A stretch of 64,000 nt of DNA. Origin: Membranipora membranacea (Eukaryota > Bryozoa > Gymnolaemata > Cheilostomatida > Membraniporidae). Under the pieces are notes generated by a model. That model saw nothing but the letters and a program-made list of their open reading frames with translations. It searched no databases and had not been told where the DNA came from. Below, piece by piece: positions 43,201 through 52,200 of this stretch (the stretch's first letter is position 1; each line of letters begins with the position of its first letter). Made by a program: the position numbers and the translations under genes. The stretch spans positions 20,014,025-20,078,024 of the forward strand of contig OU612070.1 in NCBI GenBank assembly GCA_914767715.1, read 5' to 3'.

Positions 43201-46200
43201 TGTCGTAGTCAGACTATTAGCAGATTTGTCTCTGATGGACTGTTCTAATGCTAAGACAGAGATGTTCAACAAAATACTCACACTTACTAAAATATATTTC
43301 GATCATGGCACATGTGGTAAAGTTTCAGAGTACAGTCAAGAGACACAAATAAGCAAATACCTAACAAGAATGTTATGTTACAGCAAAATGTACATTTCTC
43401 CACAAAGAACCATCAGGCTACTTTGTATGCTAGCTGGACAGAGCTTATCAAACCATACCTAATGTGCTACTAAATGGTGGACAATTCTGATGATGACAAT
43501 TCTGATGATTGAAACCATGTAAATAATCAATTATGCTTACTACCCCTCACTTCACAGTTCATTCTGTCTATTCTATTGATAAGATTTTTTCCCCTAACAA
43601 TTCAATCAATCAATGAAACATGAGCTTATCCAAGAAACCTAATAAAAGTAAATGTTCAGCAAGTGGGCACACCAAGGAGTTGATGACTTGGCTAAAACAG
43701 GAGGACAACCCAACCATGGGCTACAATGAGCTGTGCTGTTTAAATTGACTGACAAGGATGGAAAGGGCTGCTTCCAACTCTTTATAGTGACACACTAAAC
43801 AATTGTACAAATTCTTTGTCTTTGTGCTTTTTAAACTTGATGAAAACTTTTCCTTACCTTATGGTGGACCTGGCTGCACTAATAAAAGCAGGTACAACTT
43901 CCATGAAGGTGTGAGATGTTAAATCCAGCTATGCAAAACCGACAGCGTTGTTCGGTTTAATTCAGTAAATTCATAAAGCTTGTAATATCCCAACAAAGAA
44001 ATTTTAGTTTGATTACTGAGCTTACTTTATAAAGTGCAGTCTTTGAATGAATATATGTGTAAACCGATCATCTATGTATTTGTGTATTTTGCAAAAGTAG
44101 CATTCCATACTGCAAATGATGCACGCAATGAAACCCAAGATGTGTAACATTGTAAAAAAGAAATTGCAGTAGGTCAATCAGCAAACTTACCCTGTACATT
44201 TTGCTGGTGTCTGAACTCTGCTGTTCTCATGAAATGCTCTATCCAAAATGCTACCCTTTAGGCCTATATTTATATGAAATGATGCACATTAATGATCTTA
44301 ATGCTTCCCAGGAGCACTTAACTAGCATGAAATGTTTTCAAACAATAAACGTGTAATAAATCATGGAAGAAGCATTTTTTGTTGATCTAGCCAATCAAAA
44401 CTTATGTGGCTATTCGGTTACATCTGTAGAAGAAATTAATATATTAATCCAAAAGTAGGTGTGGTTAATCAACCAGTTCCTGTTTAAATGTTTATAAGTG
44501 ATCGAATGTGCCAGGTGCAATAAATTAGCTTATTGAGACTATATTATGATGATATTTATTCCATTAAAAAAAGAATTAAGCTAGAGTATGAAAAATAAAA
44601 TAAGGCCATTCACCTAGGCATAACAAAGTAAAAAACGGTGCATTATGATGATAACAGCAATACTCATTTTTCTAGAACATGTTTTAATTATGCTCGTAAG
44701 GCCAGAAAACTAAGACAAATAACAATAATGTGTCAGAACAGGACAAACGGCATCAGGGAATGAAAGATGTACGGTAACTTGTATTAATTTGGTCCCTATG
44801 GCTGCCAGTCCACCCATTTGGATCTATCATTTTTCATAATAATCGCTGCTCATCTGAGTGCCACTGGACTTACAAGAGATGTCTGGGATTCAATAAGAGT
44901 ATTAGATTAGCAAAGAATTTGTGTGTCAAAGCAGCGCAAATTTGACTGTTCTGTTTCACTATGCTGTCCAATATGTATTATATTCTTCACTTCGACTGTC
45001 AACCCTGAATTTGACATTAAACTCCGCAGTTCCACTATCACCATTTACCAGTCATCATCCAAAGTATATATTATTATATTTATCCCAGAGGTTAGATATT
45101 TACTAGTCACTAGTCATGTGTTTCTGTTTGATCTGTTTTCACATGTTATTGCCTACCAGCACAGCACCATTTTGATAGGTACCTGGAAATAAAGATAACA
45201 ACATTTTTCAAAGTAATCTCAGGACTCACACTGAATATTCTTTTGCCTATCTGAAATTTTGTGTATTGACCATCAAAGTGGAGAAACTTTTCAAATAATC
45301 AGGTTTCATAGTGGTGACTTATGGATAAAGAGATAAGTACCCATGATTGATCTAGCAAAGAAAATAACAATACTTATTTGACAGATGAGCAAAAAACCGA
45401 GCTCCAGGTGGGCATAACTTATCGAGTTGTTGGTATAATTGTGTTACCTGCAGGAGCTTGAGCAGGACCAAGCTCAGCTGTTGTAGTATATGGTGTTGTT
45501 GATGTTGATGAAGTAGATGATGTTGTAGATGAGTAGGATGATTGTGTTGGTGTATAAGTTATATCATCTCCTTGATGATTTGCTGAGTCTGTGGTTGTAT
45601 ATGAAGATGTTGTACTTGATGTTGATGATGTTGATGTAGGAGCATACTCTGTTGTTGTTGGTGTGTAGGTTCTGTGTAGGATAATGAACAAATATGATTG
45701 ATGGCGGCTAATCATCTTTATGTTATCTGAGTTGAAAAGCCTTTTTACTTGTGTGGTGAGAACTGGCAGGTCCAAGAAATTGGCGGTTTGTGCACTAGCT
45801 TTGGAAAAGGATCAATTATTTTTTCGCTTCTGTACTTGAGCTTTATATAGGAAAACTCACATGGGTTCTTGAGTTGTTGTCCTCTTCCTATGCTTTCTTG
45901 ATGCGGATCCTCTCTTGACACGGTGTTCTTCTACTGCATCCACAGACCTCTTGTTACGACCAACCAGTACCTGTCCATTTGTATACTGACCTACAATGTT
46001 AGGTAGAAATTGCTCTCTATCATTTGACCATCAATTAATACCTCAACTTAATCAGCACATAGATTGTAGCGCAAACATGGCCGGCTACAGCACTTTGTAC
46101 ATGTAGATAATGTAAAGCTTAAAAACCTTAAACTTACCTGCTGGAACTGGTGCAGGACCAGAGTCAGCTGTTGTAGTATATGGTGTTGTTGATGTAGATG

Positions 46201-49200: not shown

Positions 49201-52200
49201 CTGAGTGGGTAGTATACGGGGCTGACGTGGTCGACTCTATTTGTGATGTACTACTATATGCTGCATCATCTGGTGTGTAGGTTACTTCATGATGTTGCAC
49301 TGCTGTGGTTGAGTAGTCATCGGTTGAAGATGTTGGATACCCTGTGGTGACATCCTTGTAGTCACTTTTCTCTGAAGTCATTCGTTTGGCTGGTGTAGAA
49401 ACCCTATAGACAATATAGGCATTTTTACAGTTAAAAAGAAATTCCTCTTCCTCTTCTTTCGTCAACATCAGCATTGTGGATGGCACAATCTAACTTTGTG
49501 AAAAAGCAGAATATTGGAGCACAGCATCAATGAGAAATTTAGCGAAATTTAGCAAAAGGATTTATGTGCTCACTTTGCTACATTGGTTCACTTTGCTTTG
49601 CACGATATAATCTATCATACTAGTACTCACTTAATATTTTTAAGATATTCTTTTGGAGACATAGCACTGATATATCGTTTTATACGGCGTATACTAGAAA
49701 AGAGACGAAGGGAACTGCCACTCGGAAATCTGTTCTGTCTGTTGAATGAAATACGCCGAGTTGTTGTAGCTTGGGTAGTGGTAGTAGTTCTAGGGGTCGT
49801 TGTAGTGGTGGTGGTGGTGGTGGTGGCGGTGGTGGTAGTTGGGGCACTCGATGGCCTCCTGTTTTTCCTGGGGGTTCTCTCTATAACAAAATTAATTGAA
49901 TTTTGAAAGAGTTGAGCCCTATCAATGTATAATTTAGCTGAACAGTCACTTTCGGTCTACCACATGCTGGTTTCACTTAGATCTAGCAAGCTAGTGTAAA
50001 TGCCAGATTCTAACAAGTGTATAGATATAAGTACTTACCTTTACCATTGCGTTCACGCTTGTTTTGTCTAGCTGTTTTAAGTATCCGCCTCTCCTGTGTC
50101 TTTCTCTCCCTCTCCAGTTTGATAGCTGACTTCTCAGCCGGTGATATGGTCGGCTTCTTTGTGGTTTCACCAGCGTTAGGAATCACATTTCTATCTCGAG
50201 GTGGTTGAGCTACATCAAACCCAATGCATCAAAATGTTACAAGCAAGAACCCAAGGGAGAAAACATGCTCAATAAATGCAGAAAAAAGGTGTACGAACAA
50301 TAAAAATTTATATCGGATTCAATCAATCTCTGACCTCTGTTCAATTTTCATATTAAATAACCATCAGTCTGCTGATTGCTGCCTGTGTGTCTTACCTCCG
50401 ACATTGTATAGTTCTACTCCTTTAGTGTTCTCTATAACTTTAATCATTGCTGATGAAAATACGTTGTAGAAGAGATCATTGCTTGATGCGAATCTGTCCA
50501 CCTGCACAATGACACAAAAATTATGAGTGTAAACTGCTGTCATTGCAGACCAAAAAGCTCTCAGTATAAATGGGCAAATATCAAATATGATAAAAGCCTT
50601 GCATGACGAAAGAGGACACTAAAACTACATGTTGAGTACATCTCTACCAAGCCAAAAGGCGAATGTTTTTAGCTTAGATCTGACAGGCCTGGCCAAATTC
50701 CATCAAACCTCAAACATACCACTGATCTCTCTTGTGACGGTTTGCATACTGGCATGCTGCTGTTTCCACTGAATAGACTGCACTCTGCCTTTCCCTTACT
50801 CTTCTCTGTCACTTTGATGTCATGGTAGAGCGAGGCATCATCACCCAACATCATCACCGGCTTATCATTTGTGCTCCAGAACATGCTGACAAAGAAAAAT
50901 AGCAACGGCACATTAAACCACCTAATTATCCCCTGTCGGTGGGCCGTCGGGTGGGGGGGAAGTCTGGGGGCTCAGACTACCTTAATGTGATGAGCAGTAT
51001 GTTAGCTCGTGGCAGCAGAGCCTCACTAAGCAGCCATGATGGCCTATCAAGGCCGATTCAGTTTGTTTATTTAGTTCAGCCTATCAGGTTTGTGGGCGCA
51101 GATAACCGCTGACCTTTGTGCGGAACAAACTTAGCATGGAAAGTGGACAACTCATTTTAGTAACGTTACCACAATTCAGTTAATTTTTTTTAACACCACC
51201 AACTTGTTTTTACCGTAGTTTCAATATTCAGATCTTAAGAACACACTTACTGGCTGGCTGCGTTCTTCTCCTGGTGATAACCAAGTGATGAATCTTTCAG
51301 ATTTTTAAAGTATTGATTATTGAACACATGGTTGTCTTGGGTCCACTGGCCCTCAAATGCAGAATTCTTCTTTGTCATCTTACCAATAGTATGGGCACCT
51401 GAAAGTCATAACATCTGCTATTATTAGAGGATATAAGGGCAATTGCTCTTACAGTGTTGAGTTGAAGGTTCACATCAAGCTTTGAGCAGACTACTGGCTT
51501 GTCTTCATCCATCAGGCCAAACTAGCCTCGATGTATCTATTTTGATAAAGCTGGGTACACAACAACAACTTGAGTTTTTGATGAAAACCAAGATTTCTAG
51601 CTTGCTTGATACAACGGCCAGTAGCTCAAGCAATTTTTCGTTACCAATAAAACTTGGCTATATTTAGAAGGGTTTGGATGATGACAATAATCTAGTTGTC
51701 TCACCTAGGATAGCTGTATGCTCCTGCATATTCAGACCGAATTCCGCGCCAAGCTTCGGGCTGTTGTGGTTATGGGGTCCGGGGAAAAAGAAATTCTTGC
51801 GATTTGGGGGAGATTCTCTGTTTGGGCAGTCTACTCTTCCGACTCTAATGCTGATCTCTGGCATACAAGATCCATCTTCGCAACCTACAGAAAACCAGGA
51901 AAATAGCCTAAACAATACACACAATGAAAACAGCTCAATATGGAGAAACACAAATCTGATTCTGGTAGCAAATAGGAGGCCGCATTGACTACAATTACAG
52001 CGCTGCCTTTAACTAATTCAATATGGTGCTTGTTGAGATTTTCCTATTGTAATTGCTGTCAAGAGCAGCTGTGTGCAGAGCTAAGCTTACCATTCTGAAA
52101 TTCCGTAGCATATTTAATACCCTCTACACCAGCGATTGTTATCAGATCAGCAAATGACATTTTCTTTTCGAGAGTACGACCACCTAGTGTTCCGGTGGTA

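Follow-up and report, generated by a model that had tools for sequence, protein, structure and literature searches.

The stretch analysed here (the window) is 64,000 nucleotides of the genome of the bryozoan Membranipora membranacea (assembly GCA_914767715.1, contig OU612070.1, positions 20,014,025 to 20,078,024 of the forward strand). It carries three tandem peroxidase genes on its minus strand. The first of them, perox1, is the subject of this text: in its predicted product, a heme peroxidase domain is followed by a long tail in which exons rich in tyrosine (Tyr) and threonine (Thr) alternate with basic ones. Its neighbours perox2 and perox3 follow it on the same strand.

The perox1 model has 22 coding exons between 53927 and 45139, with GT-AG borders and matching phases that join them in a single frame of 1194 codons plus a stop. 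From N- to C-terminus, the predicted protein consists of a signal-like start, a PF00141 peroxidase, a linker rich in threonine, lysine and arginine (T/K/R) and a tail of 710 residues. An earlier sequence-only reading had described a tail of Tyr/Thr segments alternating with basic ones, and this arrangement was confirmed, the exons concerned lying at 49403-45448 on the minus strand. Its count of 21 exons had to be raised to 22, exon 22 (45182-45139) having been missed, and its gene end at 45419 came from reading exon 21 through past its donor, the protein ending in exon 22. The exons, in window positions, are the following.

Exon 1, 53919..53927, minus strand: ATG AAG AGG with the start codon; phase 0 splice to exon 2
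Exon 2, 53216..53358, minus strand: hydrophobic signal-like peptide (20 residues after MKR); mature chain begins
Exon 3, 52771..52898, minus strand: distal heme site FLRMLFHDC (Arg71, His75) and GGNAG
Exon 4, 52091..52240, minus strand: peroxidase domain
Exon 5, 51705..51884, minus strand: peroxidase domain, alignable to cytochrome c peroxidase
Exon 6, 51251..51398, minus strand: proximal site GAHTIG (His206); Trp222
Exon 7, 50720..50885, minus strand: peroxidase domain, proximal Asp269
Exon 8, 50396..50501, minus strand: peroxidase domain ends
Exon 9, 50039..50209, minus strand: K/R-rich; ends in a donor, not a stop; entry phase 1
Exon 10, 49631..49880, minus strand: poly-Thr and basic segment (RIKR); donor ATTAA/GTGAGT
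Exon 11, 49084..49403, minus strand: diverged Tyr/Thr segment (VTYTP, GYPTSS, APYTT)
Exon 12, 48840..48921, minus strand: diverged basic segment, one RVKR
Exon 13, 48494..48729, minus strand: Tyr/Thr segment 1
Exon 14, 48158..48287, minus strand: basic segment, RNKR and RVKR
Exon 15, 47613..47854, minus strand: Tyr/Thr segment 2
Exon 16, 47337..47466, minus strand: basic segment, RNKR and RVKR
Exon 17, 46862..47103, minus strand: Tyr/Thr segment 3
Exon 18, 46592..46721, minus strand: basic segment, RNKR and RVKR
Exon 19, 46138..46361, minus strand: Tyr/Thr segment 4
Exon 20, 45861..45990, minus strand: basic segment, RNKR and RVKR
Exon 21, 45448..45671, minus strand: Tyr/Thr segment 5
Exon 22, 45139..45182, minus strand: C-terminus, (G) and 13 further residues, stop; acceptor TTTCCAG

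The layout of exon 1 is that of perox3 (MTYK/VW...), and exons 1 and 2 together give a hydrophobic 23-residue start with an AKA/QE site, a putative signal peptide as judged by eye. The product of exon 22 is in frame, and 8 of 12 of its residues equal the start of the basic exons. Two further pieces were considered as exons and rejected: a degenerate basic-exon start near 45270, which has lost its acceptor and beyond which exon 22 lies, and a fragment at 48356, which stays open for only a dozen codons or so before a stop. Both are decayed basic-exon starts on the minus strand, within introns 21 and 13, and are perhaps relics of further array units.

The peroxidase domain

A Pfam scan of the protein at E <= 0.001 returned PF00141 alone, at residues 46-272 in exons 2-8 (E 7.6e-17, 62.3 bits against a cut-off of 27); PF03098, the animal-type peroxidase, was not found in it. 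This match, above the Pfam cut-off, supports the identification of the enzyme part as a peroxidase that the sequence-only reading had made; the single in-frame model with its secretory-looking start also agrees with that reading. Distal Arg71 and His75 and proximal His206 and Asp269, to which we assign their catalytic roles on the assumption that they act as in other heme peroxidases, are all present, and the same columns are kept in perox2 and perox3. The proximal His and Asp columns also agree with cytochrome c peroxidase (CCP). Trp222 aligns with the CCP tryptophan that follows the proximal histidine, presumably Trp191 in CCP numbering; this residue is Trp in perox1 only and Tyr in perox2 and perox3. 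Among the matches listed (the best 60 of 101), the solved structures were cytochrome c peroxidases, the best alignment covering residues 152-277. The protein searches gave no relatives at E <= 0.001, a result in which the poly-Thr stretch of one query probably swamped the words.

The closest described animal relatives by domain are those of the secreted "ascorbate peroxidase-like" (APX-like) clade of the peroxidase-catalase superfamily, for example sponge AqAPx and Hydra viridis APX (PMC4232752). They have the same PF00141 domain in an animal host, and a secretory signal is predicted for most members of the clade; its description, in the portion available to us, includes no tail, in contrast to the long tail of perox1 (PMC4232752), and our comparison is one of domain and host. 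Perox1 is likewise an animal gene with a putative secretory signal, given its hydrophobic N-terminus (by eye), and so is perox3.

Composition, predicted splicing and constraint of the tail

The tail, counted from residue 485, holds 184 Thr, 117 serine (Ser), 47 Tyr and 0 Cys among its 710 residues; Thr and Ser together make up 42%, Lys and Arg 8% and Tyr 6.6%. Tyr/Thr exons 13, 15, 17, 19 and 21 alternate with basic exons 12, 14, 16, 18 and 20, exons 11 and 12 forming a diverged first pair (exon 11 is 49% identical to the tail unit, E 1.5e-4). The motif R-x-[KR]-R occurs nine times, twice in each of exons 14, 16, 18 and 20 and once in exon 12. The earlier statement that each basic segment carries two R-x-K-R sites is thus right for four of the five basic exons and fails for exon 12. 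In 5000 shuffles, the motif appeared 0.12 times on average and at most three times, although the sites are duplicates and do not represent nine independent events. Together with the RIKR of exon 10, cutting at these sites is predicted to yield an N-terminal part of 469 residues, a 136-residue fragment around exon 11 with 12 Tyr, five units of 105-112 residues with 7-8 Tyr each, and four 12-residue spacers. Perox1 thus has the features of a convertase precursor, namely the secretory-looking start (by eye) and the R-x-[KR]-R sites, cleavage itself being predicted, and the genome contains 17 matches over cut-off to P-domain exons of furin-type convertases. The tail also has the Thr/Ser-rich repeats of gel-forming mucins; their Cys-rich polymerisation domains are absent from it, as it has no Cys.

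Splice sites were scored with a model whose small training set, 22 or 23 sites, came from introns within the enzyme part of perox1, perox2 and perox3. Exon 10 is open for its 250 bases, and a stop arises only across its own donor (ATTAA/GTGAGT), so that read-through leads to an immediate stop; its join to exon 11 is in phase 2 and in frame. The exon 10 donor, at 7.6, lies below the training median of 9.2, and the remaining tail donors score 5.7 to 11.9. The acceptors of exons 12, 13, 14, 17, 18 and 20 score 3.6 to 8.2, where the training sites start at 4.7 and have a median of 9.0; that of exon 22 is strong at 11.7. Poly(A) hexamers lie past the final stop (AGTAAA at 45104, ATTAAA at 44688, AATAAA at 44560), and none of the four hexamers tried was found in introns 9 and 10. 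As frame, phases and repeats fit together while several other acceptors score low, we regard the predicted single-gene model as well supported, short of proof.

Comparison of the repeat copies shows that the tail is constrained as protein, since their differences favour synonymous sites beyond neutral simulation: it is under purifying selection. Departures from the consensus were counted in each copy, a change common to several copies being counted in every one of them, and compared with 5000 neutral simulations. The four exons with paired KR sites (KR exons) have 18 synonymous and 10 non-synonymous departures, and none of the 5000 simulations reaches 18; the five Tyr exons have 25 and 27, and 15 of 5000 simulations reach 25. 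The pooled ratio of non-synonymous to synonymous departures per site (pN/pS) is 0.20 for the KR exons and 0.34 for the Tyr exons, and homologous introns between copies are 17-47% different. In the Tyr exons, eight columns have Tyr as the majority residue, and seven of these are invariant; the KR exons have one such column, and it varies.

The module appears confined to this gene. A genome search with one composite unit (339,339,785 bases in 18 contigs; the published assembly is given as 339,374,674 bp in 21 scaffolds, PMC10290214) returned 10 matches at E <= 0.1, which correspond to exons 11 and 13-21 of perox1, and no second copy of the module was found among the best 15 candidates scored.

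A candidate self-cross-linking precursor

The reading that we tentatively prefer, judging from sequence features, is that the product of perox1 is a matrix precursor which is secreted, processed by a convertase and open to cross-linking by its own peroxidase. One gene would give a secreted precursor made of a signal peptide, a PF00141 heme peroxidase, a basic/poly-Thr linker and a C-terminal array, the last comprising five similar Tyr/Thr/Ser modules and one diverged Tyr/Thr exon, with polybasic linkers between them. A proprotein convertase in the secretory pathway would cut at RNKR and RVKR, freeing the enzyme part along with the five Cys-free units and the 12-residue spacers. Outside the cell, the peroxidase and hydrogen peroxide could then oxidise exposed tyrosines and couple the chains by dityrosine, setting a bryozoan surface matrix such as cuticle, an adhesive, or a larval or zooid coat. 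The basic linkers could also bind the precursor or its products to acidic polysaccharide before setting. The sequence-only reading had proposed enzyme and substrate in one secreted chain, and that proposal keeps its ground with the in-frame model, the peroxidase domain, the constrained, Cys-free, Tyr-spaced tail and the convertase-type sites. Its mollusc setting does not: M. membranacea is a calcified, kelp-dwelling bryozoan, so the product would be expected in cuticle, adhesive or larval shell rather than in mantle or mollusc shell.

Several observations weigh against this precursor. The exon 11 acceptor is weak at 4.8, just under the minimum of its 22 training sites (4.9), a score that 214 of 39,985 positions reach, and the acceptors of exons 15, 16, 19 and 21 score 2.4, 1.7, 0.2 and 0.6, all below the training minimum. 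Retention of intron 10, leading to the immediate stop, would possibly give a short isoform without the tail. Pairwise ratios of non-synonymous to synonymous divergence (dN/dS) range over 0.10-0.66 in the Tyr exons against 0.10-0.28 in the KR exons, a weaker constraint on the former. The Thr/Ser wealth of the tail is consistent with heavy O-glycosylation, and the glycans could then mask the tyrosines. Finally, tails were read by eye in six other family loci (perox2, perox3, L044, L045, L046 and L047; the 3-kb loci L021-L043 were left out), and five of them, L045 being the exception, have a Thr/Ser-bearing linker or tail without Tyr wealth, so that a spacer role would be the family default.

This last point leads to a rival that we consider nearly as plausible, in which the tail is a mucin-like, O-glycosylated spacer whose polybasic anchors keep the peroxidase within a coat at the surface (mucus, cuticle or glycocalyx). 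The enzyme would then act on small substrates or peroxide, in defence against microbes or in coping with the oxidative chemistry of the kelp host, and the tyrosines would be incidental to the module or serve sulfation. The Thr/Ser wealth and the Tyr-free sister tails place it almost level with the precursor. The tail's composition (42% T+S, 8% K+R) suits it; so do the T/S- and K/R-bearing tails of perox2 and perox3, the Thr-rich linkers elsewhere in the family (L046:1282-1632, L047:5870-6451) and the size of that family, 36 of whose 53 exon matches cover the distal FHDC motif; antimicrobial or immune-coping roles have also been suggested for secreted animal members (PMC4232752). Yet Tyr reaches 6.6% here and is absent from the neighbours' tails, the Tyr columns stay invariant (7 of 8) while the introns diverge, the sites RNKR and RVKR have more specificity than a generic run of basic residues would, and there is no Cys in the tail for mucin-style disulfides. 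We favour the cross-linking precursor over a plain mucin anchor because the tyrosines are conserved and spaced, in a tail free of Cys, and belong to precisely that peroxidase gene which bears the array.

It is improbable, in our estimate, that the locus makes two products: a short peroxidase of 484 residues by retention of intron 10, similar to perox2 and perox3, beside a minor or tissue-specific long isoform, or else the tail as a separate transcript. The stop across the intron 10 donor would give the short form just the architecture of the neighbours, the open frame at 49489-49064 has an in-frame ATG ahead of exon 11, and the weak exon 11 acceptor points the same way. Against this, introns 9 and 10 lack the four hexamers sought, the open frame upstream of exon 11 has an acidic, non-signal start, and the phase of the exon 10 donor fits exon 11. 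It is very unlikely that the peroxidase carries a polyprotein of bioactive peptides, antimicrobial or signalling, as its tail, for although repeated units lie between dibasic sites with 12-residue spacers, the units are long (105-112 residues), Thr/Ser-rich and Cys-free, with no amidation Gly before the KR sites, a shape unlike that of any short-peptide precursor known to us.

Known systems offer partial parallels to the preferred cross-linking precursor. Peroxidasins have a role in the extracellular matrix, and we know of none with a Tyr/Thr repeat tail; the haem_peroxidase domain of certain limpet shell proteins, which we take to be that of the animal peroxidase superfamily, is apparently other than that of PF00141. 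Like perox1, peroxidasins are multidomain secreted heme peroxidases, but they belong to the peroxidase-cyclooxygenase superfamily (PMC3533774). The limpet proteins DGLSP_LOTGI, PLSP2 and PLSP3 are described as having one peroxidase domain and a long stretch predicted to be disordered, and DGLSP and PLSP2 as abundant in the shell matrix, with a proposed cross-linking role (PMC4094399). They are the closest precedent, a secreted animal peroxidase and a long disordered stretch in one chain, but they are listed with haem_peroxidase domains, are Gly/Ser- or Asn-rich overall, come from a mollusc and not a bryozoan, and the portion of that account available to us mentions no Tyr/KR module (PMC4094399). 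Cuticle collagens of the worm Caenorhabditis elegans are cleaved at a furin-like dibasic site (PMC10538796) and Drosophila cuticle has a covalent dityrosine network (PMC6440989). Perox1 would resemble the worm system in furin-like cutting of a matrix precursor and the fly system in dityrosine chemistry; the excerpts available from both accounts mention no peroxidase within the matrix chain, whereas perox1 would hold enzyme and presumed substrate in one (PMC10538796, PMC6440989).

A search of the open-access literature found no description of an array of Tyr modules and convertase linkers behind a plant-type peroxidase. The sequence-only reading's statement that no protein of this exact plan had been described therefore stands for the exact combination and is too strong as to kind, given the limpet shell peroxidases (PMC4094399). 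As far as these partly available sources go, PF00141 in secreted animal proteins (PMC4232752) and a peroxidase with a disordered stretch in limpet shell (PMC4094399) are known, and the Tyr/convertase-linker array behind a plant-type peroxidase is apparently new.

A more specific and rather doubtful proposal is that perox1 is a one-gene polyprotein of enzyme and substrate for a self-curing coat or glue. In this cluster, where the other two genes stop after a short T/S- and K/R-bearing tail, one copy would have continued beyond that point, acquired a two-exon cassette of Tyr module and convertase linker, and multiplied the cassette without breaking the frame (phases 2-1 and 1-2). Each secreted chain would then bring its own catalyst together with several releasable units able to form dityrosine, an arrangement independent of the limpet shell peroxidases. 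Should the long form be produced and processed in this way, a single gene would suffice for a protein material cured by peroxidase, reached by amplifying an exon cassette onto an enzyme. It would also bring plant-type animal peroxidases, whose role is open (PMC4232752), into matrix building, stand as an independent case beside the limpet shell peroxidases, and supply a concrete candidate for bryozoan cuticle or adhesive biology.

Neighbouring peroxidases and minor observations

The two tandem paralogues are modelled as follows.

perox2, 38165..42853, minus strand: 7 exons modelled (the first uncertain); 88-residue tail
perox3, 32807..36253, minus strand: 8 exons, 455 residues; 113-residue tail

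The perox2 tail is 25% T+S and 26% K+R and that of perox3 19% and 15%, each with no Tyr and one R-x-[KR]-R. Intron phases agree among the three genes at the introns common within the domain, perox1 having one extra intron near its start. The terminal exon of perox2 and perox3 sits at the position of exon 9 in perox1, where a donor replaces the stop, and we infer that an ancestral basic tail was extended by the array. In all three genes an intron precedes the tail at a similar place, with phase 1 in perox1 but phase 0 in perox2 and perox3. This difference in phase is evidence against a simple homology between exon 9 and their last exons, and the tail sequences give poor alignments. Perox2 also contains a decayed partial exon duplicate, 41806-41894 against 41660-41748, 73% alike over 89 bases; the copy at 41711-41574 fits the gene model.

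Genome-wide, the peroxidase-domain search gave the 53 exon matches at E <= 0.1, the weakest of which may be chance, and 94 exon matches were found for PF03098. That the oxidative chemistry of the kelp host drove the large numbers of both superfamilies is speculation. At L046:1282-1632 and L047:5870-6451, two of the four loci read outside the window (L044-L047), single open frames run from one peroxidase unit through the Thr-rich linker toward the next, and these are likely multi-peroxidase chains, although their Pfam check was weak (PF00141 at E 0.0011, below cut-off, in L046, and no PF00141 match in L047). Another peroxidase, with a Thr run, lies upstream of perox1 on the minus strand of L044 (C6:20078025-20088024). 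A MAM module following that run is not claimed: three pieces gave nothing, and a rough join scored 19.3 bits against a cut-off of 26.4.

Kinase pieces on the plus strand flank the peroxidase trio, at window positions 26341-30148 and 54904-62697. Pkinase is over cut-off at 59122-59430 and 61009-61281 and below it at 29879-30148, with no Pfam match at 26341-26619 and 54904-55161. We take the pieces to resemble a double kinase of the MSK/RPS6K type, in which case the trio would be nested antisense in its intron. Pieces of an HMG-box gene lie at 21400-22195 on the plus strand (PF00505, E 1.7e-10 at 21400-21645; weaker, below cut-off, at 21935-22195). The short minus-strand stretch 55553-55660 almost repeats the final part of a longer open frame that lies in a different peroxidase cluster (L045:1774-2253), and may be a retroelement fragment. 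The mitochondrial contig (C18) is 14,741 bp long, with genes on both strands, and its COX1 reads sensibly, by eye, with the invertebrate code (AGR Ser, ATA Met).

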